NCBI GenBank assembly: GCA_029547805.1 | Contig: JAKPOP010000012.1 | Span: 62,001 to 126,000 of the forward strand | From: Deltaproteobacteria bacterium | GTDB taxonomy: Bacteria; Myxococcota_A; UBA9042; DTJE01 | Length of the DNA: 64,000 nt | Reading direction: 5' to 3' | In this document: piece by piece, positions 14,787-53,181 of the stretch | Numbering within the stretch: position 1 is the stretch's first letter | Layout: each line of letters opens with the position of its first letter | The notes under the pieces: model-generated | What the model was told of the DNA's origin: nothing | The model's input: only the letters and a program-made list of their open reading frames with translations | Databases searched by the model: none | Position numbers and translations under genes: made by a program

Positions 14787-14801
14787 CCCGTCGCCCCTCG
14801 G

Positions 14802-16522: not shown

Positions 16523-16544
16523 GGGCGTCCTCTCCTGCCGGAGC

Positions 16545-37378: not shown

Positions 37379-37578
37379 GGTCCATGTTCCTCGTGACGAG
37401 GGCGGGAGTTTTCTTCCCGGAAACGCGAGGAGAACGATATCATAGGTCGACCCCGTCCCAGGCGTGGTGAATGTTCGATGCCCACGGCGGGGACGCCCGA
37501 TGGCGGGTCGAACCTCTCCGGGGAACGGCCTCCCGGGTCGCGGCCGGGCCCAAGGAACCGGCACGGAAGGAGGCGACG

Positions 37579-37968
37579 ATGGTGACTGGCTCCCGGGAAC
37601 ATCGGCAACATCCGCGCGTTGAGACCCGGTTGCTGGCGGTCTTCCGCAAGGACCTGGACCTGGAGGAGACCGACTCGTTGATGACCAACCTGAGTCTCGG
37701 GGGGGCCTTCGTGAAGACCCCGAACCTCGTTCCTCCGGGGACCGTGACCCACCTTCGGTTCTACGTGGACGAGGAGCAGGCCCCCCTCGCCGTCGTGGCG
37801 GAGGTCGTCTGGGTCCGCCGGGGCTCCCCCGATGGGGGTGGGCCGCCTCCGGGCATGGGAGTTCGTTTCCAGCAGATGTCCCCGGAGGATCAGGGGCGCC
37901 TGACCCGGTATCTGGCCCGACTGGTCGAGGAGGACCTCTTCGGGGCCGGGGACGGTGGTTCGGGATGA
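37579..37968 (+). CDS. PilZ-domain protein 1
   Basis: 129 residues; ATG at 37579 is placed by an AAGGAGG site at 37567-37573, and an upstream open stretch from 37471 is not used. PilZ motifs are RQHPRVETR (RxxxR) and TNLSLGGAFV (N/DxSxxG), which together bind cyclic di-GMP. A TATCAT at 37438-37443 could be a -10 box but has no good -35. First of three consecutive PilZ genes leading into the TPR/GltG-like cluster. Confidence 0.88.
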   Translation: MVTGSREHRQHPRVETRLLAVFRKDLDLEETDSLMTNLSLGGAFVKTPNLVPPGTVTHLRFYVDEEQAPLAVVAEVVWVRRGSPDGGGPPPGMGVRFQQMSPEDQGRLTRYLARLVEEDLFGAGDGGSG

Positions 37969-38015
37969 GGTGAGGAGCGGTTGCAACACCAGCACGGGCA
38001 GATGCGGTGCCAGTG

Positions 38016-38024
38016 TGGTAATAT
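38016..38024 (+). promoter_or_regulatory. extended -10 promoter between PilZ genes 1 and 2
   Basis: TGG-TAATAT matches the extended -10 pattern TGnTATAAT; no -35 is evident. It lies 40 bases before the GTG at 38064. Confidence 0.4.
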
Positions 38025-38063
38025 TGATTCCCAGCGGCCTGATGGGGCGAAAGGAGGGATTTC

Positions 38064-38420
38064 GTGACGGAGACCGAGAAGCGGGACCAGCGCCAGTCTC
38101 CTCGTCTCAAGTACGAGGCGTCGGTCGAACTGGAGTCGGACGACCGGTTCTACACGGGATTCTCCCGGAACATCAGCGGGGGGGGGCTGTTCGTGGCCGT
38201 GGCCTCGCCTCCCCCCGTGGGCACCCGGCTCACGGTCCGCTTCCGCCTGCCCACGCATCCGGACCCCGTGGAGGCCGAGGCCGAGGTCCGGTGGGTCCGG
38301 GACGGGTCCGGGGACCTGATGCCCGGCATGGGGGTCCGGTTCCTCTCGCTGCCGGACCGGGTGTCCGCGGCAATCGATCAGTACCTGAAGCAGCACGAGT
38401 CGCTGTTCTTCGACGAGTGA
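38064..38420 (+). CDS. PilZ-domain protein 2
   Basis: 118 residues from GTG 38064, 7 bases after AAAGGAGG. It is a single PilZ domain with RQSPRLKYEA (RxxxR) and RNISGGGLFV (N/DxSxxG) and the usual VGTRLTVRFRLP and GMGVRFLSL strands. It probably binds cyclic di-GMP in the cytoplasm. It lies 95 bases after PilZ gene 1, with its own likely promoter. Confidence 0.9.
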   Translation: MTETEKRDQRQSPRLKYEASVELESDDRFYTGFSRNISGGGLFVAVASPPPVGTRLTVRFRLPTHPDPVEAEAEVRWVRDGSGDLMPGMGVRFLSLPDRVSAAIDQYLKQHESLFFDE

Positions 38421-38445
38421 CCGGGCGGTCGGCGGTGACAGGAGG

Positions 38446-39174
38446 ATGAAGATGGAGGAGGAGTCCCGGCAGTCGGGCATCGAGAAGCGGCGATGGCGTC
38501 GGGTCTACTTCGCCTTCCTGGTGGAGGCCTCCGACGGCGATCGGGTGTTGCGTGGGCGCTGCCAGCGGGTCTCCGCGTCGGGCATGCACATCTATCACCC
38601 CGAACCGTTCCCCGAGGGGCGGCCCATCCGCCTGCGGTTCGTGCTGCCGGGGCAGGATCAGGCCCTGGAGGTCGAGGGGCGGGTGCTCTGGTCCCGACCC
38701 GAGGACCCCGGTCAGGGGCTGCTGGGGGGCATGATGGTGCTGTTCCCCCGCCTGGCTCCGGACCAGGAGAAGGCGATCCGGGCCTTCGTGGACTTCTGCC
38801 TCGATCGAGGGATGGAATACGAGCACTCGGCCCTTCCCACCGTGGGTCCCGAGGACCCCGGGGACGTGATCCCCGTGCGGTTCTTCGGTGCCGATCGACC
38901 CGGACGGGAGTCCTATGTGGTGAACATCTCCGAGGGAGGCATCTTCCTGCGAACGCTTCACCCGGCCGAACCGGGGGCTCCGGTGCTGGTGGACCTCTAC
39001 CTGCCGGGGGCCGATCGGGTGCACCGGGTGAACGGGAGGGTGGCCTGGAGCCGGGCTCCCGATCCGAGATCGCCCGGGTCCTCGGGCATGGGGGTCGAGT
39101 TCCTGGGGGTCTCGGGGGCGGCGGCCGAGGCCCTTCACCGGTTCGTCGAGGACTTCGGACGGGAGTCGGCCTGA
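38446..39174 (+). CDS. tandem PilZ-domain protein 3
   Basis: 242 residues; ATG at 38446 after GACAGGAGGATG. Two PilZ-like units: residues about 10-115 (RRWRRVYFAF and RVSASGMHI, the second motif atypical) and about 140-240 (VNISEGGIFL but no RxxxR). Neither unit has both canonical motifs, so one or both may not bind cyclic di-GMP. Such degenerate units often mediate protein contacts. It lies 25 bases downstream of PilZ 2 and 13 bases before the coiled-coil gene, so the run is probably cotranscribed. Confidence 0.85.
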   Translation: MKMEEESRQSGIEKRRWRRVYFAFLVEASDGDRVLRGRCQRVSASGMHIYHPEPFPEGRPIRLRFVLPGQDQALEVEGRVLWSRPEDPGQGLLGGMMVLFPRLAPDQEKAIRAFVDFCLDRGMEYEHSALPTVGPEDPGDVIPVRFFGADRPGRESYVVNISEGGIFLRTLHPAEPGAPVLVDLYLPGADRVHRVNGRVAWSRAPDPRSPGSSGMGVEFLGVSGAAAEALHRFVEDFGRESA

Positions 39175-39187
39175 GGGGAGGTTCCCG

Positions 39188-39856
39188 ATGAGAGTGGGAC
39201 GTCTGGCGTGGATGGTCCTGGTGCTGGGCGCCGCGGTGGCCAGAGGGCAGGAACCCCCGCCTCAGGGGCCGGGAACGACCTCCGCAACGCCCGGCACCGA
39301 GGGGGCGGCGACCGAGGGGGCCGCCGCGGTCCGCTTGCGCCAGTTGCGGCAGCGGGTCGAGGAACTGAAGGGTCAGGTCTTCGACGCGAAGACCCAGCTG
39401 ATGCTGTTGCGGGAGCAGATCCTGCAGAACCTCATCACCGATGCCCGGATCGAGGTGGTCCAGGTCAATGAGTTGTCCGCCGCCCTGAGCCTCGAGGAGG
39501 TCATCTACTCCCTGGACGGGGAGCGGATCTACTACCAGGCCAATCGGGAGGGGGCCCTGGACCGGAAGGAATTCCGGGTCTTCGAAGGAAGCGCGAGCCC
39601 CGGCAACCACGTGCTGGAGGTGGAGATGCTGTTCCGGGGCAACAGCACGGTCTTCACCTACCTGGGGGGCTACGTGTTCCGGGTGAAGGCGTCGGTGCCC
39701 TTCGTGACCATCCAGGGCCGCGCGGTTCGGGTCCGGACGGTGGCCTTCGAGAAGGGTGGGGCCGCGACCCGACTGGAGGATCGCCCCTCGATCCGGTTCG
39801 AGACCCAGCAGGACCGGGCCGTGGATCCTGCAGCCACCCAGGGTGAAGTTCGGTAG
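39188..39856 (+). CDS. secreted coiled-coil protein, unknown function
   Basis: 222 residues; ATG at 39188 behind GGGGAGG. The signal peptide ends at VARGQ. An Ala/Gly/Thr linker is followed by a coiled coil (VRLRQLRQRVEELKGQVFDAKTQLMLLREQIL) and a beta-rich domain (EEVIYSLDGERIYYQ, HVLEVEMLFRGNSTVF, GYVFRVKASVPFV). It is probably periplasmic. It sits directly before the TPR protein genes, suggesting membership of the same envelope complex. Family not recognised. Confidence 0.75.
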   Translation: MRVGRLAWMVLVLGAAVARGQEPPPQGPGTTSATPGTEGAATEGAAAVRLRQLRQRVEELKGQVFDAKTQLMLLREQILQNLITDARIEVVQVNELSAALSLEEVIYSLDGERIYYQANREGALDRKEFRVFEGSASPGNHVLEVEMLFRGNSTVFTYLGGYVFRVKASVPFVTIQGRAVRVRTVAFEKGGAATRLEDRPSIRFETQQDRAVDPAATQGEVR

Positions 39857-39870
39857 GGAGGCGCCAGGGA

Positions 39871-42246
39871 ATGGGGGCGAGGCGGTTCTGGAATCCGGTG
39901 GCCGGCCTGCTGGTGCTGGGGTGGCTGTCTCCGGCCGCCGCCGTGCCGCCAGGTCCCCGCGACGTTCGGGGGACCCCCTCGCTGGATGCAGCCCTGGCGG
40001 ACATGCAGGCGGCCGAGAACCTGGTCGCGGCGGGTCGCCGGGAACTGGCCACGTTGCGGGCCCGGGTCCGAGACTTCCCGGTGGAGCGCCGGGTGGTCGA
40101 CGCCGACCTCTTCTTCGAGATGGGGCAGTACGGGAAGGCCGCCGTTCTGTACCGGGATCTGGCCGAAAACCCCGAGTACCGGGGGCATCCGGGCTGGGCC
40201 CGATCGCTCTTCCAGTTGGGGGAGTCCCTCTACCGGATGGGGGCCCTGTTCCGGGCCCAGGAGGCCTTCCGGACCGCCGCCCAGGTGACTCCGGAGCCCT
40301 ACCGGTCCCGGTCCCTGGCCCGGGTGTTCGAGATCGCCGCGTCGGAGGCCGGGCAGGAGGGGGTCGCGGACCTGGAGGATCTGGCCCGAAGCCCCGGGGC
40401 CTCCCCGGAACTGCAGTATGCCTACGGCAAGTGGCTCCGGATGACGGGACGACAGACCGAGGCCGCGACGGTGCTGGGGCGGATTCCGCCCGATGCTCCG
40501 ACGTTCGCCCGGGCCCAGTACCTGCTGGGGGTCATCGCCGCGGCCCGGGGGGACCTGTTGGAGGCCTACGGCCGATTCGCCGCGTCGGCGGCCGCGCCGG
40601 TGCACTCCGACGAGGATGCCCTGGTCCGGGGGGCCGCGGTGCTGGCCCAGGGCCGGGTCCTGTGCTCCCAGGACCGGGTGGCCGAGTGCATGTCGGTGCT
40701 CCAGGGCCTGGATGCCCGGAGCGCATCCTTCCCCGAGGCGATCTTCGAGTTGGCGTGGGCTCACTACAAGGCCGGGGACCTGCCCGGGGCGGTCCGGTCG
40801 CTGGACGTCCTGTTGATGACCTCCCCCGACGGGGAACTGGGGATGAAGGCCCGGGCGCTTCGGGGCCGGGTGCTGGTGCGGATGCGGGACCGTGCCGGGG
40901 CCGAGGCGGCCTACCAGGAACTCACCGCCCAGGTCCAGCCGATCCAGGAGGAGATGGACCGCCTGCTGGCGGACCAGGCACGCCTGGAGGCCTGGCTGGA
41001 CTTTCGCATGGACCGGAGGGACGCCCGCAAGGAAGGGGTGTCTCCGCTGGGCGAACAGGCGGAACGTTGGATCCAGGAGGACCCGGAACTCCAGGACCTG
41101 ATCGGGATGTTCGAGGACCTGCGGGCGCAACGCCAGGAGATCCAGGAGGGACTGGAAATGGCCCGATCCCTGTCCTGGGCGCTGCGCTCCGGGAGCCGCA
41201 TGGAGGCGTTCCCGTCGTTGAAGGAGCGCTACCTCCAGGACCGGGAGGCCGAGGGGCGGGTGCTGCGGTCCCTCCGGACGGCCCTGGCCTTCCTGCGAAG
41301 CACGGTCCTGCCCGGCCTGCCCGAGGCGGCGCGTGCGACCATCGAGGGCGGGAGTCGCCGGGGCAGGGACCAGGAGGAGGAGGTCGATCGGCTTCCGGTC
41401 ACCCGGGAGGAATTCCTGGCCCGGGCGCGGACGATGTCTGCGGAACTGTCGGCGCTGGGACAGGAGGTCTTCCTGCTGGAGTCGCTGCTGCGGGTCCAGA
41501 GGACCCAACTGCAGGCCATCCTGGAGTGGATCCGGGCCCAGCGCGAAGAGGCAGGGGGCGCCTGGAGCCCCGATCGGGAGGCACGCATCCAGCAGGAGAT
41601 TTCGCGGCAACGGGCATCCCTGGCCTCCCTGGAGAAGGCCGTTGCGACGCTGAAGGAGACGCTGGTCCAGGAGGGGGTGTCCGTGAATTCCCCCGAGGAC
41701 CTGGAGGCCGAGAACCGGCTCCGGCGGCAGGCCCTGGATCAGGCCCTCCAGGAGATTCGGCGATGGCGGACCCTGGGGGGCCTGTCGCCGCAGGACGGAC
41801 AGGCGGTGGCCACGGTCGCCGCGCTGGCGGATCGGGGCCAACAGGCCCTGTCGGCCATCGCCGAGGTGGACGGCGCGGTGGTCGGGGCGGCCTCCCAGGC
41901 CTCCCGGGAACTCCAGGGACAGGTGACCCGGGCGACGTCGGTCCTGGAGGCCGCCGCCGGGGCCTTCGAGGCCACCGGCATGGAGATCGCATCGGTCTCC
42001 CGGACCGAGGTGGCCCGGGCCCTGCGCATGGTCCGGGATCGGTTGGGGGTCGCCCTGTTGGAGGCGGACCTGGGCCTCGTCGAGATGGCCTGGCAGGCGG
42101 CCGCCGAGGTCGAGGATCGCCAGCAGTCGCTCGGGAAGGCCTATTCGGAACGGCTCCGGGCCCTGGATGCCGTCGGAAAGGCGCTGAAACCGCTGATGCC
42201 GGTCACGACCCCGGTGGCCGGGGAACCGGCGCGGCCGGCCAGGTGA
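39871..42246 (+). CDS. secreted TPR and coiled-coil protein of the Glt-like cluster
   Basis: 791 residues; ATG at 39871. The signal peptide ends in SPAAAV. Residues about 65-330 are TPR-like repeats (FFEMGQYGKAAVLYRDL, LFQLGESLYRMG, LAWAHYKAGDLPGAVRSLDVLL). Residues about 340-740 are long charged helices, probably coiled coil (IQEEMDRLLADQARLEAWLD, RRQALDQALQEIRRWR). Periplasmic TPR proteins of this kind occur in the gliding-machine clusters of myxobacteria. A scaffold role is inferred from position only. Confidence 0.78.
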   Translation: MGARRFWNPVAGLLVLGWLSPAAAVPPGPRDVRGTPSLDAALADMQAAENLVAAGRRELATLRARVRDFPVERRVVDADLFFEMGQYGKAAVLYRDLAENPEYRGHPGWARSLFQLGESLYRMGALFRAQEAFRTAAQVTPEPYRSRSLARVFEIAASEAGQEGVADLEDLARSPGASPELQYAYGKWLRMTGRQTEAATVLGRIPPDAPTFARAQYLLGVIAAARGDLLEAYGRFAASAAAPVHSDEDALVRGAAVLAQGRVLCSQDRVAECMSVLQGLDARSASFPEAIFELAWAHYKAGDLPGAVRSLDVLLMTSPDGELGMKARALRGRVLVRMRDRAGAEAAYQELTAQVQPIQEEMDRLLADQARLEAWLDFRMDRRDARKEGVSPLGEQAERWIQEDPELQDLIGMFEDLRAQRQEIQEGLEMARSLSWALRSGSRMEAFPSLKERYLQDREAEGRVLRSLRTALAFLRSTVLPGLPEAARATIEGGSRRGRDQEEEVDRLPVTREEFLARARTMSAELSALGQEVFLLESLLRVQRTQLQAILEWIRAQREEAGGAWSPDREARIQQEISRQRASLASLEKAVATLKETLVQEGVSVNSPEDLEAENRLRRQALDQALQEIRRWRTLGGLSPQDGQAVATVAALADRGQQALSAIAEVDGAVVGAASQASRELQGQVTRATSVLEAAAGAFEATGMEIASVSRTEVARALRMVRDRLGVALLEADLGLVEMAWQAAAEVEDRQQSLGKAYSERLRALDAVGKALKPLMPVTTPVAGEPARPAR

Positions 42247-42257
42247 GGGGGGGAGCG

Positions 42258-45200
42258 GTGAAGAGAGGGGCGGCATTCTGGGTCCTCCTGGCGGCCTGGG
42301 GCGCTCCCGGATGGGCCCAGCCGGGACCCGTGGCCGACTCCGCCCCTCCCGGGGTCCTGGAGATGGAGGACCATGCCCGGGCCTTCGCCGAGGCGGCGGA
42401 TCGATTCCGCAGCGACGTGGTCTTCCAGTTGCAGTGGGAGGTCATCCGGCAGAAGCAGGGGCTGACGGCCGCCTACCAGCGGGAACGGAGGAGGCTGGAC
42501 CAGGAGATGGCCGGCCGCCGGAAGGAGGCCATCGCCGTGCTGGAGCGGTTCGTCGAGCACCAGCCGAACCATCCCCTCTACACCCCGGAGGTCCTCTTCC
42601 GGCTCGCGAAACTCTATTACGACCAGGCCCAGGACCAGTACATGGAGGCCTACGCCGCCTACGAGGAGCAGCGAGAACTGCACCGGAGAGGGAAGATCGC
42701 CGACGCCCCCGAGGAGCCCCGGAAGAACCTGGACCTGGCCATCCGGACCTACGAGCGGATCCTGGAGCGATTTCCGTCCTTTCGGCACAACGACGCGGTG
42801 CTCTATGCCCTCGGGTTCACGCTGCGGCAGGTGGATGAACCGGACCGGGCCACCGAGGTGTTTCAGCGGTTGGTCCGGGAGTACCCCCGGAGCAACTGGG
42901 TCCCCGACGCCTGGCTCATGGTCGGCGAGGCCCTCTTCGAACAGGGACGTTTCGCCGAGGCTGTCACGGCCTACCGGCAGGCGATGGGGGACCCCGGGGC
43001 CCGCTACTACGGCATCGCCCTCTACAAGCTGGCCTGGTCCCACTTCCAGATGTTCGATTACCCGACGGCCATCCGGACGTTCAAGCAATTGATCGAGTAC
43101 CTGGACGGCCTGCACGACCGCAGCGACCGGGCCACCCAGATCCGCAACGAGGCGGTGGAATATCTGGCCTTGAGCCTCGCCGACGAGGACTGGAACGGAG
43201 ACGGACTGCCCGACCCCGATGCCACCGTGGCCCGGGCCATCGCCTACCTGTCCGACGGGAAGCCCTTCGAGCGGGAGGTCCTGGAGCGCTACGGCGACGC
43301 CCTCTACCAGGAGTTCGAGAAGCGGAAGTATCCGATGGCCCTGGAGGCCTACCGGGCCGTGATCGCCATGGACCCGATGGACCCCCGGAACGCGGCGGTG
43401 AAGGAGAAGATCATCCGCGTCTACGAGACGATGCGGGACGAGGACGGGGCCGTGGCCGAGCGCCAGGACCTGGTGCGCACCTATGGTCCAGGGACTCCCT
43501 GGTACGAGCGCAATCGGGACCATCCCGAGGTGCTGGCGCGGGTCGATCGGCGCATGGAGATCGCGCTGCATCAGGTGGCGCAGTTCTACAAGGGCAAGGC
43601 GAAGGCCCTGCGGGACCAGGCGGTCCGGTCGGGGGACCCGGCCTACCTCTCGGCGGCGGTGCAGCAGTATCGCCTGGCCGCGGAGGCGTTCCAGGACTAC
43701 CTGAAGCGCTTCCCCGACAGCCGCTATGCCTACGAGAACACCTACGACCTGGCGGACTGTCTCTACTTCAGTTTCGAGTTCGCCCGGGCGGCCGAGGTCT
43801 ATCGCCGGGTCCGGGACTGGCCCAACCAGCAGCGGTACCGGGAGGCGGCGGCCTTCAACGTCATCGACGCCCTGGAGAAAGAGGGGGCAAAGGCCGTGCA
43901 GGACGGTCGCCTGACCAGGGCAGACATCCCCGGCGAGACGGGCGAGGTCCCGGAGGAGCGTCCCCCGGCGGGGGTCTCGGGCCGGGTGGAGGTCCAGCCA
44001 CTGCCCCTCTCGCCACTGGTCCAGCAGTGGATCCTCGATGTGGACTACTACGTCCAGAACGGCCTGAGTCGGGCCGACGACCCGGAACTCCCGGCGCGCC
44101 TGGCCTACCGGGCCGCCGTGGAACTCTACCAGCGCCGGCATCTGGAGGAGGCCCGGAAGCGGTTCATCGCCGTGATGGATCGCTTTCCCGGCAGCCAGGT
44201 GGCCGTCTACTCCGCCCAGGCCATCATCAATTCCTACCGGATGGAGAACGACTGGGAGAACATCCAGGTCTGGGCGCAGCGCATCGAGGAGCGGCAACTC
44301 GGCAAGGCGGAGGACCGGGCCGCCCTGGCCGCCGAGGTCCGGCTGTTCCAGCTGGGCGCTGCCTTCCAGGAGGCCGAGCGGCTCTTCGAGGCAGGGGAGT
44401 ACGTCCAGGCGGCCGAGGCCTTCGTGAAGGTGGTGGATCAGGACCCGAAGATCAAACTGGCCGACAAGGCGCTCCAGAACGCGGCCCTGGCCTACGAGAA
44501 GGCTCGTCGGCACGAATCGGCGAGTCGCGTCTACGAGCGCCTGATCCGGGACTACCCCGCATCGCCATTCGTGGAAGGAGCCCTGGTCCGGCTGGCGGAC
44601 AACGCCCGGAAGGTCTTCGACTTCCAGAAGGCCGTGGAGGTCTGGGGCGACCTGATCCGGCGCTTCCCGAAGAGCGAGAACGTGCCCCTGGGACTGATCA
44701 CCCAGGCGGACATGCTGGAGGCCATGGAGCGCTACCGGGACGCCGCCCGGATCCTGGAACAGTATGCGGACGCAGTCTCCGACCCGATGGAGAGCGCCCG
44801 GGCTCTGTTCCGGGCCGGGGCATTGTGGGAGCGCAACGGGAACAACGGCGACGCGCAGCGGGTATGGAAGCGGCTGCTGCAGGTCCACGGAGGGAACCGG
44901 GAGGCGGCGTTGCTGGTCCTCGATGCCCTGACCCGGATGGCCCGGATGGTCCGGTCCGACAACAAGGAATTCGAACGGCTGGCCCGGGAGGTGGTCCGGC
45001 GGGCCGAGGCCCTCGGAGTCCAGCCCGACACTCCAGAGGCGGCCTTCCCGGCCCAGGCGCTGTTCCAGTTGGCGGAGCCGAGGTTCGAGGAGTACTCGAA
45101 CATCCGCTTCCGGGGGTCCCTGAAGGTCCAGGGGCAGTTGCTCCAGAGGAAGGCCAGGTTGCTGGCGGACCTGGAGAACGACTACCGGAGGGTGCTGGCC

Positions 45201-45554
45201 TGGCAGTCGGCCGAGTGGTCGGCGGCGGCATCGTACCGCATGGCCCAGATGCACGAGTTGTTCGCCCAGGCGCTCTTCGAGGCGGAGATCCCCGAGATGT
45301 CCCAGGAGGACATGGACACCTACCAGAACATGCTGGAGGACCGGGTCCACGTCTTTCGGGAGACGGCGATGCAGCGCTATGAGACGATGGTGACGGAGAC
45401 CCGACGACTCCGGGTGTCCAACGACTGGACCCGGAAGGCCGTCGAGGCGCTGCACCGGTATCGTCCCAACGAGGTCCCGGCGATCCGGGAGGAGCGGCGG
45501 GTCCTGGACTTCGGCTGGAGGCGCCCGGCACCAGGGTTCGAGGAGGAACTGTGA
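42258..45554 (+). CDS. large secreted TPR protein (GltD/AgmU-like architecture)
   Basis: 1098 residues from GTG 42258 behind GGGGGAG; an upstream open extension is not used. The signal peptide ends WAQ. Many TPR-like units fill the chain, e.g. VLFRLAKLYYDQAQDQYMEA, FSFEFARAAEVYRRV and YVQAAEAFVKVVDQD. Its size and lack of other domains are like GltD/AgmU, the large periplasmic TPR protein of Myxococcus gliding motility. Homology to GltD is suggested by layout, not proven. The stop overlaps the next GTG (GTGA), so the two are translationally coupled. Confidence 0.78.
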   Translation: MKRGAAFWVLLAAWGAPGWAQPGPVADSAPPGVLEMEDHARAFAEAADRFRSDVVFQLQWEVIRQKQGLTAAYQRERRRLDQEMAGRRKEAIAVLERFVEHQPNHPLYTPEVLFRLAKLYYDQAQDQYMEAYAAYEEQRELHRRGKIADAPEEPRKNLDLAIRTYERILERFPSFRHNDAVLYALGFTLRQVDEPDRATEVFQRLVREYPRSNWVPDAWLMVGEALFEQGRFAEAVTAYRQAMGDPGARYYGIALYKLAWSHFQMFDYPTAIRTFKQLIEYLDGLHDRSDRATQIRNEAVEYLALSLADEDWNGDGLPDPDATVARAIAYLSDGKPFEREVLERYGDALYQEFEKRKYPMALEAYRAVIAMDPMDPRNAAVKEKIIRVYETMRDEDGAVAERQDLVRTYGPGTPWYERNRDHPEVLARVDRRMEIALHQVAQFYKGKAKALRDQAVRSGDPAYLSAAVQQYRLAAEAFQDYLKRFPDSRYAYENTYDLADCLYFSFEFARAAEVYRRVRDWPNQQRYREAAAFNVIDALEKEGAKAVQDGRLTRADIPGETGEVPEERPPAGVSGRVEVQPLPLSPLVQQWILDVDYYVQNGLSRADDPELPARLAYRAAVELYQRRHLEEARKRFIAVMDRFPGSQVAVYSAQAIINSYRMENDWENIQVWAQRIEERQLGKAEDRAALAAEVRLFQLGAAFQEAERLFEAGEYVQAAEAFVKVVDQDPKIKLADKALQNAALAYEKARRHESASRVYERLIRDYPASPFVEGALVRLADNARKVFDFQKAVEVWGDLIRRFPKSENVPLGLITQADMLEAMERYRDAARILEQYADAVSDPMESARALFRAGALWERNGNNGDAQRVWKRLLQVHGGNREAALLVLDALTRMARMVRSDNKEFERLAREVVRRAEALGVQPDTPEAAFPAQALFQLAEPRFEEYSNIRFRGSLKVQGQLLQRKARLLADLENDYRRVLAWQSAEWSAAASYRMAQMHELFAQALFEAEIPEMSQEDMDTYQNMLEDRVHVFRETAMQRYETMVTETRRLRVSNDWTRKAVEALHRYRPNEVPAIREERRVLDFGWRRPAPGFEEEL

Positions 45555-46816
45555 GGGGGTGGTGGATCATCGTCGGGTTCGCCGGGCTGCTCGCCGCCTG
45601 CGGGGGCACCCAGGTGCGCTCGGAGCCGACGCCTGTCGCTCCCGCGGCGCCCGAGGCCCCGACGGTGGCTCCGGAGCCGGCTCCGGGAGAGGCGGCGGCA
45701 CCCGAGGACGACCCCGATCGGGTCCATGCCGCGGAGCAGGCCGCCCGGGAGGTGGTGGCCGGGGTCCGGGCAGGGGGAGGGGATCCGGCCGAGGCCCGGA
45801 CCCGGCTCCTGGCGCTGGTCCAGGGGGGAAACGCCTCGGCAGTGGCCTGGTACAACCTGGCCGTGGCCGAGATCCGCCTGGGGGATCTCGCGGCGGCGGC
45901 CGATCATGCCTGGAAGGCCGTCGAGATGTCCGGGGGGGCGCCCCGGGCCCTGGCTGTGGCCCGGGAGTCCTTCTCGAAGGCCTCGAGGGGCCCGGAACTG
46001 GCCGATCGCCTGGAGGCCCTGTCCCGGAACCTCCCGGAGAACGACGCCCTGCGCCTGGCGCTGGCCGATGCCCTGGTGCTGGCCAATCGCCCGGGGGATG
46101 CCCTCCGGGAGGCCACGGAGGTCCTTCGGCGGGACGAGACGAACGTCGAGGCGATGCTGACCATCGCCCGGGCCTACCTGGCCATGAAGCGCCTGGATGC
46201 GGCGGAGTACGTGGCGGTCCAGGCCGCGGACATCGGGAAGGACCCCCGGGCCCTGGCCCTGCTGGGCCACATCGCCTGGCACAAGGGGGACGCGAAGCGG
46301 GCGATGGCCTACTACCAGGAGTCCCTCAAGGGGGACCCGACCCAGCCCGAGGTCCAGAACAACCTCGCCGCCCTGTACCAGGAAGCCGGAGACGCCGCCG
46401 GCGCCGAGCAGGCCGCCAGCGAGGCCCTGCGCCTGGACCCGACCTACCGGGACGCCTGGATCAACCTGGGGAATGCCCGCCGGGCCCGGCAGGACTACGC
46501 CGGCGCCATCGCGGCCTACCAGGAGGCCCTGCGCCTGGACCCGGACTGCGCCGAATGCGAGTTCAACCTGGGGGTGGCCGAGATGGACCATCGGCCCCCG
46601 GAACAGGACGAGCCGGGGCACTGGAAGCGGGCCATCGAGCACCTCTCTCGCTACCGGGTCATGCGTCGGGGAGCGGTCCGGGTCGATCCGACGCTGGACG
46701 CCTATCTGGACGAAGCGCGACGGAATGCCGATTTCCTGGAGAAGGAGCAGGAGCGCCTGCGGCAGGCCCCGGCGCCCCAGCCCAGGGAACCGGAGACGGG
46801 GGAGCAAGGCCCCTGA
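45551..46816 (+). CDS. TPR lipoprotein (GltE/AglT-like)
   Basis: 421 residues from GTG 45551, overlapping the previous stop by 4 bases. The signal peptide has lipobox LLAAC (Cys about 17). A Pro/Ala/Glu linker leads to about seven TPRs (residues 75-395), e.g. ALLGHIAWHKGDAKRAMAYYQ and WINLGNARRARQDYAGAIAAYQ. TPR lipoproteins next to large TPR proteins occur in gliding (GltE) and pilus (PilF/Tgl) systems. Adjacency to a GltG/AgmX-like gene favours the former. Confidence 0.8.
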   Translation: MRGWWIIVGFAGLLAACGGTQVRSEPTPVAPAAPEAPTVAPEPAPGEAAAPEDDPDRVHAAEQAAREVVAGVRAGGGDPAEARTRLLALVQGGNASAVAWYNLAVAEIRLGDLAAAADHAWKAVEMSGGAPRALAVARESFSKASRGPELADRLEALSRNLPENDALRLALADALVLANRPGDALREATEVLRRDETNVEAMLTIARAYLAMKRLDAAEYVAVQAADIGKDPRALALLGHIAWHKGDAKRAMAYYQESLKGDPTQPEVQNNLAALYQEAGDAAGAEQAASEALRLDPTYRDAWINLGNARRARQDYAGAIAAYQEALRLDPDCAECEFNLGVAEMDHRPPEQDEPGHWKRAIEHLSRYRVMRRGAVRVDPTLDAYLDEARRNADFLEKEQERLRQAPAPQPREPETGEQGP

Positions 46817-46838
46817 ATGGGAGTCGGGGGCGCGTTTC

Positions 46839-46868
46839 TTGATCGATGGGGTGTCGAAGGGGGATAAT
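46839..46868 (+). promoter_or_regulatory. internal promoter before the GltG-like segment
   Basis: TTGATC (46839-46844), 18 bases, GATAAT (46863-46868), start near 46875. It supports the start codon at 46894 for the next gene, since the upstream ATG at 46867 overlaps the -10 box. Confidence 0.5.
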
Positions 46869-46893
46869 GAGGGCGCATCCGAGGGCGGGTGAG

Positions 46894-47208
46894 ATGATTC
46901 GGAGATGGGTGCTGCTGTTGCTGCTGATGGTTCCCGCAGGGTCGTGGGCCCAGCAGCCTCCCTCGGGCGAATCCCCGACCGAGGGCGCGCCTGCCGCCGG
47001 CAACGTCCGGGTCCGGGAGTGGGTCCAGCGTGGGTCCCAGAAGGTCGTGGAGGTCAATTTCGAGGACAACACGGTCATTCAGGGGAAGGTCCAGAAACCC
47101 GGCGTGGAGTACCTGATCTCCCAGGACGAGTTGAAGTATGAAGGGCTCCCGATGGAGCACGATCTGGTCGAGACGCTGGAGCGTTCGGCTCGAAGCCGGC
47201 CTTTCTGA
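46894..47208 (+). CDS. small secreted protein of the Glt-like cluster
   Basis: 104 residues; ATG at 46894, chosen because earlier in-frame ATGs lie in or before the promoter and because a clean signal peptide (MIRRWVLLLLLMVPAGSWAQ) starts here. The mature part has a Pro/Ala linker and a short charged beta segment (VRVREWVQRGSQKVVEVNFED, then VIQGKVQKP) ending in a basic helix. Position in the cluster suggests a periplasmic accessory protein. Family not recognised. Confidence 0.65.
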   Translation: MIRRWVLLLLLMVPAGSWAQQPPSGESPTEGAPAAGNVRVREWVQRGSQKVVEVNFEDNTVIQGKVQKPGVEYLISQDELKYEGLPMEHDLVETLERSARSRPF

Positions 47209-47246
47209 AGGGGTTCCGGGGTGACGGCGCGAGACAGGGGTGGAAC

Positions 47247-48662
47247 GTGAGCGAGAAGAAGGGACCGGAACGAATCCTGCGAGTCGGGATTGTCCACCAG
47301 GGACGGATCGTCGAGGAGCGGCTGCTCCGGCGCCCCGGGGACGTGACGGTCGGCCTGTCCCCGAAGTGCACCTTCATCCTCCCGATCCAGAAGCCCCCGG
47401 AGCTCTATCGGCTGTTCCTCTGGAAGGACGGGGGATACCTGCTCCGGTTCACGGCAGGGATGGTCGGGAAGGTCTCGGTGGGTGACGAGGTTCTGGACCT
47501 CTCGGAGGTCCGGGAGCGGGGCCTGGCCCGCCGGGAAGGGGACTACTTCCTGCTGCCCCTGGGGAGCAACGCGGCGGGGAAGGTCCTCTTCGGGGAGGTC
47601 CGGGTCCTGTTCCAGATGGTGGCTCCCCCGCCGAAGCCCCGGAAGATTCCCGTCCCGCCGGCGGCCCGGGGGGGGCCCCTGGCGGCGCTGGACGGCCCCT
47701 ATGCCTGGTCGGTGCTGGTGTCCTTCCTGCTGCACGTGGCCCTCGCGGCCGGGTCCCAGTGGTGGTGGGTCTCGTCGGGACAGATGGAGAAGGCGGCCCA
47801 GCGGGAGTCCTTCGTCTATCGGGTGCTGACGGCCGAACTGACCAAGAAGGAGAAGGTGGAGCCCCAGGAACAGGCGGGGCAGGGGGAGGGGGAAGGGACC
47901 GGAGGCGGCGCCGGGGAGGACGAGGGGAAGAGCGGCAAGGACGAGAAGCCCACGCCGCGGTTCACCAAGGCCGCCAGCGGCGGGGAACTCTCGGAGGAGG
48001 AGCGCTATCGCAGACAGGTGGCCCGGGTGCGGGAGGGGACGATCCTGAAGTACCTGGACGGTCCGGGCGGCGGCATCCGGGGCATCGTCGGGGCCGAGGC
48101 GGCCACCGAGGGCGTGGCCGGCGGGTTCGGCAGCGGAAGGGGTGCCACGGTGATCGCCGGGGACTCCTTCGGCTACCGCGGTGGCCGGGGAGGCGGTAGC
48201 GGCGGGGGAACGGGAGGCGGGGGAGGCAACACCTACCAGCGCCTGTCGGACGAGGACATCGGAGGCGGAGGACCGAGGCGCCCGGTCCAGGTGGCCTCGG
48301 GGCAGCGGGCCCAGGAGGAGGCGGTGCGCATCCGGGTCGGGGACCAGATGGGCGAGTCCAGCGGTCCGGGAAGCCTCAACGTGTCGGCGATCGACGGCGT
48401 GTTCCGGCGGCGGCGTGGCGCCATCGAGTCCTGTTACCAGCGGGCCCTGCGGGTCAATGCGGGCATCGAGGGGAAGGTTTCGATACGATTCACCATCGGG
48501 ACCGCGGGGAACGTCACCGATGTCCAGATCGTCGAGAACAGCACCGGCGACAGCAGCGTCGGGGCCTGCATCGCCGACAAGATCCGGTCCTGGTCGTTCC
48601 CGCCCCCGGACGGAGGCATCTTCATTGTCACCCGGCACTTCCTGTTGATGAAGAGCGGGTGA
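47247..48662 (+). CDS. GltG/AgmX-like TonB-type protein with FHA-like head
   Basis: 471 residues from GTG 47247. The N-terminal part (about 1-115) is an FHA-like cytoplasmic domain (LRVGIVHQGRIVEERLLRRP, VTVGLSPKCTFIL, GVPSS-like region absent). A single membrane helix lies near residues 150-172 (VLVSFLLHVALAAGSQW). A long Glu/Gly-rich periplasmic linker (GGRGGGSGGGTGGGGG at about 312) spans the envelope. The C-terminal about 90 residues are the AgmX/PglI TonB-like domain (GAIESCYQRALRVNAGIEGKV, IRSWSFPPPDGG). In Myxococcus, GltG and GltJ of this design link the inner membrane to the outer-membrane complex. The FHA-like head favours GltG. Confidence 0.82.
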   Translation: MSEKKGPERILRVGIVHQGRIVEERLLRRPGDVTVGLSPKCTFILPIQKPPELYRLFLWKDGGYLLRFTAGMVGKVSVGDEVLDLSEVRERGLARREGDYFLLPLGSNAAGKVLFGEVRVLFQMVAPPPKPRKIPVPPAARGGPLAALDGPYAWSVLVSFLLHVALAAGSQWWWVSSGQMEKAAQRESFVYRVLTAELTKKEKVEPQEQAGQGEGEGTGGGAGEDEGKSGKDEKPTPRFTKAASGGELSEEERYRRQVARVREGTILKYLDGPGGGIRGIVGAEAATEGVAGGFGSGRGATVIAGDSFGYRGGRGGGSGGGTGGGGGNTYQRLSDEDIGGGGPRRPVQVASGQRAQEEAVRIRVGDQMGESSGPGSLNVSAIDGVFRRRRGAIESCYQRALRVNAGIEGKVSIRFTIGTAGNVTDVQIVENSTGDSSVGACIADKIRSWSFPPPDGGIFIVTRHFLLMKSG

Positions 48663-48693
48663 CGCCCCGGGAGGGTCCCGGGGGGGAGGCAAC

Positions 48694-49311
48694 ATGAGCC
48701 GGACCATCGGAAGGGTCCTGGGAGTCGCGGCGACGGTGTGGGCGTTCGGGGCCCTTGCCCAGGGGGGGACGGGGACCGCCGGCACTCCGGCGGTCACGCC
48801 GCCGCTGGACCGGACCGCGGAGCTGGCCGGGTCGAACCTGCGGGCCTCGGACCTCCAGGCGATGTCGATGGAGGAGATGACCCGACGGGCCGACCGCCTG
48901 GTCGAAGAGATGGACCGGGCCGTGAAGGATGTCCTGGGGCTTCTGAGCCAGGCGGTGGCAGCGAACGACTTCACGAGGATCAACAGCGTCAACCAGACTC
49001 TCACGATGATGAAGGGCCTCCTGCGGATCTCGGGCCAGAACGCCATCTCGTTGCGGGAGGCGGTCGCCTCCCGGGATCGGGCGGGGGCCGAGCACGAGTT
49101 CGTGAAACTCCACATCGCCAGGAATCGGATCCTGGCGCTCCGGGATCAGGCTCAGGCCTCCGGAGGGACCAGTGGCGAGACGTTGTTCCTGGGCAGCCCA
49201 TTGGTGGAGCGGCAGTTCGCCGATGACCTTCCCCAGGCCGACGTCGCCGATGGACTGCAGGAAGTGGCCATCGACCTGATGGTGCCGCCGTCGGCGAGCC
49301 CATACTACTGA
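48694..49311 (+). CDS. secreted helical protein, unknown function
   Basis: 205 residues; ATG at 48694 after GGGGGGAGG. The signal peptide ends ALAQ. The mature chain is mostly amphipathic helices (EMTRRADRLVEEMDRAVKDVL, FTRINSVNQTLTMMKGLLRI, EFVKLHIARNRILALRDQA). No known family. It lies between the GltG-like gene and the outer-membrane barrel gene in the same transcription unit, so it is probably periplasmic and part of the same complex. Confidence 0.75.
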   Translation: MSRTIGRVLGVAATVWAFGALAQGGTGTAGTPAVTPPLDRTAELAGSNLRASDLQAMSMEEMTRRADRLVEEMDRAVKDVLGLLSQAVAANDFTRINSVNQTLTMMKGLLRISGQNAISLREAVASRDRAGAEHEFVKLHIARNRILALRDQAQASGGTSGETLFLGSPLVERQFADDLPQADVADGLQEVAIDLMVPPSASPYY

Positions 49312-49336
49312 GACGGGCGGGCGAGGGACAGAGAGG

Positions 49337-50635
49337 GTGAAGCGCTCGATGGCGAAGGCGATTCGGGGAGCGGCAGTGTTGGCGCTGCTGCTGCTCCCGG
49401 CCATGGCGGTGGCCCAGGTGGGCCTCTCCCTGCCACCCGTGCAGGACGACGAGGTCCGGGGAGTGCGGTTCGGGCAGTTCGTCTGGGTGCCGTTCCTGGG
49501 CATCGAGGGGCGCTACAACAGCAACGTCTTCCGCCAGGACAGCCGGGAGGGCCGCTCCGAGGCGGGCATCCTGACCCTCCGGCCGGGCTTCTCCCTGGGG
49601 AACCCGAACTACTCGTGGCTCCACCTGACCTGGGACGCCTCGGTGGACGTGAACTTCTGGTTCAGCGACGACCCCAACGTCCGGAAGCAGGGCCGAGTCG
49701 CCGCCGAGACGGGCCTTCGGGCCGAGTTCTTCCCGAAGTCGGTGGTGGGCTTCTACATCGCCGATCGATTCCAGCGGACCTCGACCCCACCCAACGAGAG
49801 CTCGACCCAGCGCTATGACCGGAACTTCAACCATGTCGGCGCCGGGATCCAGGTCCGTCCCGGCAGCGCCCTGGATTTCTCCCTGGGGTATGCCTACGCC
49901 TTCGACCTGTTCGATCGGTTCTCCGAGGGGGATCGGTCCTTCCACGAGGTCCGGCTGCTGGCCCTGTGGAAATTCTTCCCCAAGACCCTGTTCCTGGGGG
50001 ACGTGGACTGGCGCTACCAGCAGTGGAGCACCGCCCAGACGGGATTCCGGAGCGGATCGATGCCCCTCCGGGCGGCGCTGGGCGTCCGGGGATTCGTCAC
50101 CCGCCAACTGGCCCTGGAGGTCCGGGCGGGGTACGGCCAGGGATTCTACCGGGAGGGCTCGGACGTCCAGACCTTCATCGGGAAGGCCGCCCTGGCCTGG
50201 ATGCCGACTCCCTTCACGCTGGTGGACTTCGGCTACCAGCGGGACTTCGAGGATGCCTCGTTCTATGGACGATGGTTCACGACGGACTCGCTGCGGCTCA
50301 AGGTGGCCCAGCAGTTCCTGCGCCGGGTCACGCTGGCGGGGGAATTCGGATGGTCCTACCTGTCCTTTCCTCGGGTGGTCCCGGGGACAGGAGACGTCCC
50401 GGGATACTCGTCGGTGACGGTGAGCCAGGAACAGCGGCGGGACCATGCACTGAAGGCGCGCCTGGAGGTCGGGTACTCGGCCTTGCGCTACCTGTCCCTG
50501 AAGGTGGGCTACCAGATGGACGGGATCCTGACAGGGTTCCGGATGACGGGCACGACACCCGGGGGAGCGCCGCTGGTGGACTACGGCGGGTGGTGGGTGC
50601 ACCAGGTCTTCGGCGAGGTCCAGGTCCTCTACTGA
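49337..50635 (+). CDS. outer-membrane beta-barrel protein next to an OPX gene
   Basis: 432 residues; GTG at 49337 (ATG 49349 is an alternative). The signal peptide ends AVAQ. The rest is a series of amphipathic strands with aromatic girdles (YSWLHLTWDASVDVNFWF, SALDFSLGYAYAFDLFDRF, YLSLKVGYQMDGIL), a hallmark of a large porin. Its size and adjacency to an OPX protein resemble the Wzp barrels (PF10082-type) that Myxococcus pairs with short OPX proteins to make an export pore. That pairing is inferred from known systems. Confidence 0.82.
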   Translation: MKRSMAKAIRGAAVLALLLLPAMAVAQVGLSLPPVQDDEVRGVRFGQFVWVPFLGIEGRYNSNVFRQDSREGRSEAGILTLRPGFSLGNPNYSWLHLTWDASVDVNFWFSDDPNVRKQGRVAAETGLRAEFFPKSVVGFYIADRFQRTSTPPNESSTQRYDRNFNHVGAGIQVRPGSALDFSLGYAYAFDLFDRFSEGDRSFHEVRLLALWKFFPKTLFLGDVDWRYQQWSTAQTGFRSGSMPLRAALGVRGFVTRQLALEVRAGYGQGFYREGSDVQTFIGKAALAWMPTPFTLVDFGYQRDFEDASFYGRWFTTDSLRLKVAQQFLRRVTLAGEFGWSYLSFPRVVPGTGDVPGYSSVTVSQEQRRDHALKARLEVGYSALRYLSLKVGYQMDGILTGFRMTGTTPGGAPLVDYGGWWVHQVFGEVQVLY

Positions 50636-50650
50636 CGCTCCCGGGGGGTC

Positions 50651-51250
50651 ATGATCCGCTTCTCCCGGTTCCTGTGGATGGTCATTCCCTGGGTCCTGGC
50701 CTGCGGGGCCTCGGGGAACTACCGCGAGTGGGAGGCCTCCTCGCCTCGAGTCGCCGAGTCGGGCGGACAACTCGGTCCCGGGGACCTCATCGAGGTGAAG
50801 GTCTTCCGGGAGAATGACCTCTCGGGGGTCTTCCAGGTGGGCCCCGACGGGACCATCGACTTCCCCCTGATCGGGACCCTGGCGGTGGCGGGTCAGACCG
50901 CGCCGGAAGTCGCTTCCCTGATCCGGCAGCGGCTCGGGGAGGGGTATCTGCAACATCCCCACGTGACCGTGCTGGTCAAGGAGGTCCAGTCGCGGCGGAT
51001 CTACGTCCTGGGCCAGGTGGAGCGGCCGGGGACCTTCAAATACGAGGAAGGAATGACGGTGGTGCAGGCCATCACGCTGGCCGGTGGATTCACGAAGACC
51101 GCCCGTCCCGATGCCACGGTGGTGACCCGGGTCATCGACGGCCGGGAGACCCGCTTCGTGGTTCCCGTCGAGGAGATCAGCCGAGGGACGGCCCGGAACC
51201 TGCCCCTGTTGCCGGGGGACATCGTCTTCGTTCCCCAGTCCATCCTCTGA
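50651..51250 (+). CDS. short OPX (Wza-like) polysaccharide export lipoprotein
   Basis: 199 residues; ATG at 50651, 15 bases after the barrel gene. Lipobox VLACG. Residues about 40-115 are the polysaccharide export domain (LGPGDLIEVKVFRENDLSGVFQVGPDGTIDFPLIG) and about 115-190 an SLBB domain (SRRIYVLGQVERPGTFKYEEGMTV). It lacks the C-terminal helix by which E. coli Wza makes its own outer-membrane channel, so it should need a separate barrel, as the neighbour suggests. It would carry a capsule, EPS or similar polymer; no glycosyltransferase is adjacent. Confidence 0.9.
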   Translation: MIRFSRFLWMVIPWVLACGASGNYREWEASSPRVAESGGQLGPGDLIEVKVFRENDLSGVFQVGPDGTIDFPLIGTLAVAGQTAPEVASLIRQRLGEGYLQHPHVTVLVKEVQSRRIYVLGQVERPGTFKYEEGMTVVQAITLAGGFTKTARPDATVVTRVIDGRETRFVVPVEEISRGTARNLPLLPGDIVFVPQSIL

Positions 51251-51284: not shown

Positions 51285-51312
51285 TTGAAACGCGAGCCTG
51301 TGGTGCTATCAT
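51285..51312 (+). promoter_or_regulatory. promoter of dnaK
   Basis: TTGAAA (51285-51290), 16 bases, TATCAT (51307-51312); start near 51319 and a leader of about 50 bases to ATG 51370. It separates dnaK from the OPX gene. Confidence 0.6.
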
Positions 51313-51369: not shown

Positions 51370-53181
51370 ATGGGCAAAGTCATCGGCATCGACCTCGGCA
51401 CCACGAACTCCTGCGTGGCGGTGATGGAGGGCGGGAATCCGGTCGTGATCCCCAACCTGGAGGGAAGCCGGACCACCCCGTCGGTCGTGGCCATCGGGGA
51501 CGACGGCGAGCGGCTGGTGGGTGCCGTGGCGAAGCGACAGGCCATCACCAACGCCCAGAACACGGTCTTCGCGGTGAAGCGGCTCATGGGGAGGAAGTAC
51601 GACTCCCCGGAGGTCCAGCGGGTGATTTCCTCGTACCCATACAAGATCGTCCGGGCCGCGAACGGCGACGCCGCGGTGGAACTGGCCGGCCGGCAGTTGT
51701 CGCCCCCCGAGATCTCGGCGGTGATCCTGTCGAAGATGCGGGAATACGCCGAGGAGTACCTCGGGGAGACGGTGACCGACGCGGTGATCACGGTGCCCGC
51801 CTACTTCGACGACACCCAGCGGCAGGCCACCCGCGATGCGGGGCGCATCGCCGGCCTCAACGTCCTTCGGATCATCAACGAGCCCACTGCCGCGGCCCTG
51901 GCCCACGGACTGTCCCGGCGGGCGGCCGGGCGCATCGCGGTCTATGACCTGGGGGGAGGGACCTTCGACATCAGCGTGATGGAGGTGGGCGAGGGGGTCT
52001 TCCAGGTGAAGACCACCCACGGGGACACGTTCCTGGGGGGCGAGGACATCGATGCCCGGATCGTGGACCTCCTGGCGACCCAGTTCATGAAGATGCACGG
52101 GGTGGACCTCCGGGAGGACGTGGTGGCGCTCCAGCGCCTGCGGGACGCCGCGGAGAAGGCGAAGATCGACCTCTCGACGGCCCGGGAGGTGGACATCAAC
52201 CTCCCGTTCATCCACGCGGACACGAGCGGCCCCAAGCACATCCAGGTGACGTTGACCCGGGCCCAGCTGGAAGCCCTGGTGGACGACATCATCTCCCGGA
52301 CCATCGACCACTGCCGCCAGGCCCTGGCCGACGCCGGGGTCGAGCCCCGGGAACTGGACGAGGTGCTGCTGGTCGGGGGCATGACCAAGATGCCCCTGGT
52401 GCAGCAGAAGGTGGCGTCGTTCTTCGGGATGCAGCCCTCCCGGGGGGTGAACCCGGACGAGGCGGTGGCGGTGGGAGCGGCGATCCAGGCGGGGATCCTC
52501 CAGGGCGACATGGGCGACGTGGTGCTCCTGGACGTGGTGCCCCTGTCCCTGGGCATCGAGACCCAGGGTGGGATCTTCACGCCGCTGATCGAACGGAACA
52601 CCGCGATCCCCTGCTCGGTCACCGAGGTCTTCACCACGGCCGAGGACTACCAGCCCCTCGTGAACATCCACGTCCTCCAGGGCGAGCGGCCCCTGGCGAG
52701 GGACAACAAGAGCCTGGCCCGCTTCGAACTGCTGGGCATTCCGCCGGCCCGGCGGGGCATCCCGAAGATCGAGGTGGCCTTCGAGGTGGACGTGAACGGG
52801 ATCCTGAACGTCTCGGCCCGGGACCTGGGGACCGGCAACGTGCAGACGGTCCGGGTGCGGCCCACCTCGGGTCTCAGCGAGCGGGACATCGAGCGGATCC
52901 TGGCCGAGGCGGCCGAGTCGGCCCGGGAGGATGCCTCCCGGCAGGAACTCGCGAACCTGAAGAACCGGGCCGACGGGCTCATGTACACCACCGAGCGGTC
53001 CCTGGAGGAGTTCCTGAACTACCTGACCGACGAGGAGATCGCCCGGATCCACGCCGACCTGGAGGCCTGCCGGAAGGCCCGCAACGGCAACGACCCCGCG
53101 GCGATCATCGCGGCGATCAAGAACCTGGAGAAGTCCTCCTACCGGATCGCGGAACTCATGTACCGCGACGCCTCCGGTTGA
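51370..53181 (+). CDS. dnaK: Hsp70 chaperone DnaK, short C-terminus
   Basis: 603 residues; ATG at 51370 with GGAGAGGAGA. The nucleotide-binding domain is complete ([59 protein letters not shown]), and the substrate domain has [16 protein letters not shown] and [18 protein letters not shown]. The helical lid ends with [13 protein letters not shown], so the disordered tail and the terminal EEVD-like motif of E. coli DnaK (638 residues) are absent. No grpE or dnaJ is adjacent. It may be a secondary copy. Confidence 0.95.

Follow-up and report, generated by a model that had tools for sequence, protein, structure and literature searches.

A composite translocon, in which an outer-membrane polysaccharide export (OPX) protein is combined with an 18-strand outer-membrane barrel, has been described (PMC9601211; PMC9603273). 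The Myxococcus xanthus proteins EpsX and EpsY are reported to bind and stabilise each other, and the closest reported match of EpsX is AlgE (PMC9601211). A further pair is that of WzaB (MXAN_1915), reported as 204 amino acids (aa) long, and WzpB (MXAN_1916), of which residues 26–421 served as query in the published account; the two genes are 23 bp apart. Their cargo, biosurfactant polysaccharide (BPS), is reported to be rich in ManNAcA and to be released, not surface-bound. The G4 cluster of M. xanthus has MXAN_1922 as its gltD homologue (PMC3169522); MglA and MglB are MXAN_1925 and MXAN_1926. The present work concerns a 64,000 nt stretch of a Deltaproteobacteria bacterium genome (contig JAKPOP010000012.1, positions 62,001 to 126,000), here termed the window, in which nine genes at positions 39188–51250 combine a Glt-type set with a barrel and an OPX gene. 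Judged by sequence and gene order, this run corresponds, among Myxococcota, to the glt-like G4 cluster of M. xanthus together with the "orphan-like" BPS exporter WzpB/WzaB.

In the open PMC literature searched and read, G4 and WzaB/WzpB are treated apart and no paper joining them was found; cluster figures (PMC3169522, PMC3858216 and the BPS and OPX papers) may show the neighbourhood.

Relation to the M. xanthus G4 cluster

The run reads ORF1, gltC, gltD, gltE, gltF, gltG, ORF7, barrel and OPX. The Myxococcus-like locus L169 displays the order OPX, barrel, ORF7, a cyclic-nucleotide-binding gene, gltG, gltF, gltE, gltD, gltC, ORF1, an MglA-like gene and an MglB gene. The OPX protein of this locus has 204 aa, the barrel 421 aa, the cyclic-nucleotide-binding protein 148 aa, the MglA-like GTPase 195 aa and MglB 159 aa, and the gap between the OPX and barrel genes is 23 bases. 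A gene count along L169 reproduces the MXAN numbers 1915–1926 exactly. As the order, the lengths and the 23-base gap all fit the MXAN numbers, the window run is taken as the counterpart of the G4 cluster plus WzpB/WzaB. The L169 OPX sequence shows 100% identity over 185 residues with PDB entry 9n9a, which is titled "Polysaccharide export protein". In the Myxococcus-like family to which L169 belongs, 63 of 75 genomes have a window-type gltG at E 1e-40, with one place in each.

Myxococcus- and Archangium-like loci carry genes for an MglA-type GTPase and an MglB-type protein immediately ahead of ORF1 and in its orientation (L169:17997-19075). This mglBA-type arrangement is also present, by gene lengths, in L117, L170, L174 and L176–L180. 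The cyclic-nucleotide-binding gene is located between gltG and ORF7 (L169:7797-8243). Genes of the same length and with similar starts are at L117:12338-12784 and L143:12589-13035, beside a neighbour of 318–343 aa without a known family.

Conservation of gene order

Genome contigs were searched with a 14-row GltG alignment (A1), which comprises the window sequence and those of 13 relatives picked for their similarity in GltG. Of 271 relatives, the best 80, titled Myxococcota, Deltaproteobacteria or unplaced metagenome-assembled genomes, were retained, and every one of them was counted. Gene calling is unreliable in some of these loci, and therefore the counts rest on tblastn. Locus L074 was set aside as not judgeable for the barrel and OPX because its downstream DNA reads N.

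The barrel is beside gltG in 67 of the 80 loci (absent in 2, not judgeable in 11). An OPX gene is downstream of gltG in 54, absent in 7 and not judgeable in 19, and GltD is present in 62, the remaining 18 being not judgeable. Barrel identity to the window protein is as low as 19–61% and the flanks differ, yet the order is retained. In a phylum sample of genomes at least 95% complete, the GltG type of the window is found at E 1e-60 in 116 of 189. A further 29 loci were hand-picked, mostly from long contigs, and do not constitute a sample; L162, L171 and L178 all show the run. L165 and L081 are one locus. The GltG tree has 108 rows, as one of 109 sequences was shorter than 370 aa and was omitted; L181 (4.1 kb), one of the 29 hand-picked loci, was also omitted. 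The other alignments contain 39 of 56 listed barrel rows (A2), all 19 ORF1 rows (A3), 23 of 43 ORF7 rows (A4) and 16 of 47 OPX rows (A5).

In a clade consisting of L106, L145, L149, L150, L151, L152 and L168, gltG is kept and the motor and barrel are mostly kept; OPX is unseen where the flanks are judgeable.

Proteins of the run

The nine open genes encode proteins P0001–P0009 and are close-packed on the + strand, with intergenic gaps of −4 to +38 bases and a high third-position GC in every gene. Positions are those of the whole window.

ORF1 (P0001, 39188..39856) is the first gene of the conserved run and is predicted to encode a secreted protein with a coiled coil and a beta-sandwich; it has a 20-row phylum-wide alignment. 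The model (predicted local distance difference test, pLDDT, 75.6) displays a helix at positions 41–81 followed by eight strands. Pfam and NCBIfam scans gave no match to ORF1, Foldseek gave only two matches below 0.001 (TM 0.31), and no convincing sequence relative was found in PDB.

P0002 (39871..42246) is a GltC-like periplasmic protein with tetratricopeptide repeats (TPR) (NF033756 1e-8, TPR_2 1.1e-9). P0003 (42243..45554) is a large periplasmic TPR protein (TPR_6 6.6e-34), and its GltD label is based on TPR content, gene position and similarity to the GltD-like genes of relatives. P0004 (45551..46816) is a GltE-like TPR lipoprotein (NF033758 1.9e-15) with the N-terminal lipobox LAAC. P0005 (46846..47208, alternative start 46894) is a small secreted GltF/CglF-like protein; the match to NF033764 is weak (5.5e-4) and its place is kept in relatives.

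P0006 (47247..48662) is a GltG-like protein with a single transmembrane segment and a TonB/AgmX-PglI C-terminal domain (NF033760 2.2e-35, NF033768 8.3e-24, TonB_C 1.1e-6; alignment A1). It is proposed as the energy-transducing arm. An FHA domain, at residues 26–90, is reported in M. xanthus GltG (PMC3169522, Table 1). P0006 gave no FHA match (PF00498) in a Pfam scan at E 0.1, and it aligns to the GltG model only from model position 226 of 650; the FHA-bearing part is therefore considered absent and the FHA label was rejected.

ORF7 (P0007, 48694..49311) is a small secreted protein with a 24-row alignment, for which no Pfam or NCBIfam family was found at E 0.001. It is followed by a Wzp-type barrel (P0008, 49337..50635) and a short OPX lipoprotein (P0009, 50651..51250).

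All scores are below the NCBIfam equivalog cut-offs, i.e. 34.4 bits against 450 for GltC, 56.7 against 225 for GltE, 122.3 against 650 for GltG and 19.9 against 90 for CglF. Thus the run proteins are Glt homologues but not gliding equivalogs. Homologues of GltC, GltD, GltE and GltG are all within one set, GltD by TPR content and place. Apart from the C-terminal domain of P0006, no GltI, GltJ or GltK homologue is among the run proteins. None of gltA, gltB and gltI/J/K was seen in the run, and a genome-wide search for GltA, GltB and GltI/J/K was not made. Within the window, no AglRQS/TolQR-type motor and no glycosyltransferase adjoins the run.

A preliminary description made from this DNA had listed two TPR proteins, a TPR lipoprotein, an FHA-bearing AgmX/PglI-TonB protein, small secreted proteins, a barrel and an OPX lipoprotein in series on one strand, with neither motor nor glycosyltransferase adjacent. 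This gene list is confirmed except for the FHA domain, and the families found in domain scans are those of Glt and AgmX, not unrelated ones. The serial layout and the lack of an adjoining motor or glycosyltransferase were correctly described.

Exit pore

The P0008 model, built from 40 aligned sequences, is predicted with a pLDDT of 90.3 and displays 18 long strands over a chain length of 432 aa; the Pfam match is to PF10082 (1.5e-11). In a second structural alignment AlgE is first (Z 21.1, rmsd 4.3, 315 residues aligned), with OccK7 and a BenF-like porin within 1 Z of it and Wzi lower at 16.9. A profile of the barrel sequence found nothing in PDB at E 1. The size of 432 aa and the 18 strands led to rejection of a GltA/GltB-type small barrel as a candidate for P0008.

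The OPX protein P0009 is 199 aa long (PF02563 1e-22, SLBB 2.2e-14) and ends at PGDIVFVPQSIL. The chain terminates right after PGDIVFVP, directly behind the second domain, as in OPX proteins of the D1D2 type. It has the features of short OPX proteins, i.e. a length within the reported size rule of 280 aa or less (PMC9601211), PF02563 with the PES motif and no C-terminal outer-membrane helix. Its closest solved chain is 9n9a (171.8 bits, compared with 72 for Wza). The OPX and barrel genes are 15 bases apart. P0008 and P0009 agree with the composite OPX/barrel translocon, for which mutual binding is reported in EpsX/EpsY.

P0009 is the only OPX protein found in the 4.08 Mb genome (a single PF02563 match). 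By plain arithmetic, the chance that the sole OPX gene would be located no more than 11 kb downstream on the same strand is roughly 0.1%. Since the genome has this one OPX gene and the order recurs across the phylum, the run is more than a chance arrangement.

Motor genes

In 40 of the 80 loci, gltF and gltG are separated by a MotA/TolQ-type gene, in most cases together with two ExbD-type genes. Such a motor gene is absent in 29 and not judgeable in 11, so that 40 of 69 judgeable loci carry a motor. As the order recurs phylum-wide and often with motor genes, a proton-driven machine at or beside a sugar-polymer exporter is suggested. The GltG tree requires at least 7 changes between presence and absence of the motor. 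In it, a supported clade without the motor comprises the window and L073–L076 and is next to L077–L079, of which L077 and L078 have the motor.

Both relevant residues are readable in 32 in-cluster motors, and 29 of these have exactly one ExbD-type subunit with the aspartate of the TolR PLVDV motif. The aspartate is in the second subunit in 26 and in the first in 3, with Ala or Gly in the other; the 3 remaining motors have two. Examples of the motor axle among L073–L152 are L084:8257-9576, L088 and L143.

The window genome has five MotA/ExbB genes. One of them, at contig C5, lies between a further GltG homologue upstream and two ExbD-type genes downstream, both with the aspartate. Contig C23 has a further set of GltC/D/G homologues that is closer to the gliding models (GltC 4.8e-85, GltG 1.1e-77). 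The M. xanthus Nfs system is reported to work with the AglRQS motor (PMC3858216), and thus a motor in trans has a precedent. The M. xanthus M2 motor, MXAN_3003-5, is reported to be dispensable for motility and sporulation.

Co-polymerase and sugar genes

A polysaccharide co-polymerase (PCP) gene is behind the OPX gene, within 11 kb, in 14 of the 80 loci; the other 66 are without it or not judgeable. In a family scan the PCPs of L049 and L051 each combine Wzz with a fused domain of the kinase type, i.e. they are of the PCP-2A type. They resemble WzcB in this, which is reported to be a PCP-2A (PMC7310880). In L090 a nucleotide-sugar dehydrogenase and a TviC-like epimerase are encoded between OPX and PCP, and L084 has two genes with the same start motifs as this dehydrogenase and epimerase. 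The putative cargo is pointed to by these PCP and uronate-type sugar genes beside OPX in other lineages and by the wzaB/wzpB match.

The window genome has a PCP of 722 aa at contig C29 (TIGR01005 match) with GNVR and AAA_31 domains, i.e. the fused tyrosine kinase type. It is 31–40% identical to nine in-cluster PCPs and has orthologues in four other genomes (G001, G005, G007 and G011); it is not linked to the run. Wzy_C matches are on contigs C1, C9 and C23. On C9, the contig of the window itself, the region at 176–188 kb (within L202, C9:176000-194885, about 63–75 kb past OPX) encodes glycosyltransferases, a WecG-type enzyme and a distant PCP-like protein. L202 also encodes a GH9-type hydrolase and a TolC-like protein.

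Neighbouring genes

Three PilZ genes precede the run on the + strand. The first (P0014, 37471..37968, PF07238 3.4e-16) encodes a protein of the cyclic di-GMP-binding type, is a probable lead-in gene, and its ortholog precedes the cluster in L073, L074 and L076. The second (P0015, 38064..38420, PF07238 3e-19) has orthologs in the same three loci. The third, a double PilZ gene (P0012, 38446..39174), matches PF07238 in two stretches (1.1e-28) and ends 13 bases before ORF1. The three-PilZ lead-in (37471-39174) is present in L073, L074 and L076, and the tblastn table reports it for no further locus.

A DnaK-type chaperone gene (51370..53181, + strand, PF00012 6.5e-237) starts 119 bases after the OPX gene. 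It is a conserved neighbour in the class of the window and a possible part of the system. In many relatives of this class a DnaK-type gene is found after OPX or PCP, e.g. L043, L044, L047, L049, L051 and L053, and some (among L051, L052, L053 and L061) add DnaJ-type and thiL-like genes in that position.

Promoter-like sites number 2, compared with 0.5 in shuffled sequences, one of them at 51285-51312 between OPX and dnaK; terminator-like sites number 5, compared with 4.9. Neither count was used as support. Elsewhere in the window, a radical-SAM-like protein and three neighbours are encoded at 13860-17099, which we take to resemble a His-Xaa-Ser maturation set.

Proposed function and alternatives

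What the loci show directly is the gene content and order, the folds, and that the order is kept whether or not aglRQS-type motor genes are present. The run probably encodes a Glt-type trans-envelope complex around an OPX/barrel exit, coupled to a motor, which acts in exporting a BPS-like polysaccharide or in handling it at the surface. We infer the coupling to a motor and its direction, as well as which motor serves the window lineage.

The two-part outer-membrane exit, i.e. the 18-strand barrel and the short OPX protein, would serve a BPS-like polysaccharide made by the Wzx/Wzy route. An AglRQS-like proton motor would move the TonB-like arm of GltG across the periplasm, and GltC, GltD, GltE, GltF, ORF1 and ORF7 would pass the movement on to the OPX/barrel pair. 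The work may pull, release or gate the polymer at the exit, or may keep the exit sites moving. The window genome would supply the motor from elsewhere, namely the gltG-aglRQS set at C5, and the co-polymerase from C29. The PilZ proteins would allow control by cyclic di-GMP. Because the exit is inside the run, action at the pore is preferred, although this is not decisive.

The preliminary description had proposed a machine that links energy or sensing to polymer export or surface movement. The part concerning energy and export has gained from the motors in 40 of 69 judgeable relatives and from the cargo hints. The part concerning surface movement is disfavoured because a polar mutation of MXAN_1922 is reported to leave motility normal (PMC3169522). 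The order extends across Myxococcota and so beyond this genome, and the search for motor genes suggested in that description led to the five MotA/ExbB genes and the gltG-aglRQS set at C5, which may serve this complex.

Several observations weigh against a motor-coupled complex at a BPS-like exit. Seven loci (L106, L108, L111, L116, L149, L150 and L151) have no OPX gene in 9 kb of clear sequence, and L106, L149, L150 and L151 fall in one clade. The Sandaracinus-like loci L153 and L154 have Glt-like genes and no barrel or OPX beside gltG; the arrangement in L153 agrees with the published location of the Sandaracinus wzaB counterpart with other BPS genes. The in-cluster motor is missing in the window lineage and in Myxococcaceae. 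The window genome gave no Wzz match (PF02706) and its PCP was found only through TIGR01005. Glt-like neighbours are not mentioned in the published wzaB work in so far as its text is covered here, the G4–BPS link being one that we infer, and the authors of the Nfs work, in its available text, assign that machine to a step after export and not to the pore.

The last point leads to the alternative that survives best, which is nevertheless doubtful. The complex would capture the polymer outside and move it or lay it along the surface with AglRQS power, as Agl-Nfs is reported to do with Exo, where export sites and NfsD are described as not co-localised. The motor genes in 40 of 80 clusters are compatible with such handling. 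However, exo and nfs are described as separate loci, whereas the barrel and OPX genes are here inside the run, and BPS, as noted, is reported to be released.

It is unlikely that common descent alone keeps the Glt-like genes beside the OPX/barrel pair and that the two work apart. In favour of this reading, dnaK, dnaJ and thiL likewise accompany the run in the class of the window, and the seven clear loci keep gltG without OPX. However, the order is kept despite barrel identities of 19–61% and differing flanks, and the barrel is absent from the side of gltG in only 2 of 80 loci (67 present, 11 not judgeable). Least credible is a gliding or surface-movement machine with its own slime exit, to which the GltC–G homology and the mglBA-type genes directly upstream in Myxococcus-like loci would point, but which was rejected as a first choice because of the reported absence of a motility effect in the MXAN_1922 mutant (PMC3169522) and the second, closer GltC/D/G set at C23, the run also having no GltI, GltJ or GltK homologue beyond the P0006 C-terminal domain.

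The motor-coupled complex at the exit would join two literatures, since the G4 cluster and the WzaB/WzpB exporter are neighbours that are kept across the phylum, frequently with a motor of their own. The G4 cluster gains a function that can be tested and the unassigned M2 motor (MXAN_3003-5) a candidate task. The question is raised whether proton-driven force acts in polysaccharide export across the outer membrane. A wider proposal, tentative and to be held with more reserve, is that Myxococcota use mechanical force to export polysaccharide across the outer membrane. A proton motor dedicated to this task, the axle pair of which usually has one protonatable aspartate, would act through a TonB-like arm on the Wzp/OPX exit. 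Such a force-coupled secretion machine may be the parent form of, or a sister to, the gliding and spore-coat machines.

Comparison with known systems

The M. xanthus G4 cluster with wzpB/wzaB (the MXAN_1922 region and MXAN_1916/1915) has the gene order of L169 and is the counterpart of the window run. Unlike it, the window has PilZ genes where mglBA stands upstream, has no cyclic-nucleotide-binding gene between gltG and ORF7, and has dnaK downstream.

The Agl-Nfs spore-coat machine with Exo is, as reported, alike in its Glt-type complex, its motor in trans and its polysaccharide cargo. It differs in that the barrel/OPX exit is inside the window cluster, and NfsA/NfsB-type small barrels were not found in the run.

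The Agl-Glt gliding machinery (G1, G2 and M1) shares GltC, D, E, F and G homologues with the window. However, the window scores are under the equivalog cut-offs, its GltG is without FHA, gltI/J/K/A/B were not seen in the run, and the run carries an OPX gene and a Wzp barrel.

The EpsY/EpsX and WzaB/WzpB translocons likewise have a short lipoprotein OPX without a C-terminal helix beside an 18-strand AlgE-like barrel. In contrast to these, the exporter in window-type runs is embedded in a Glt-type set, often together with motor genes.

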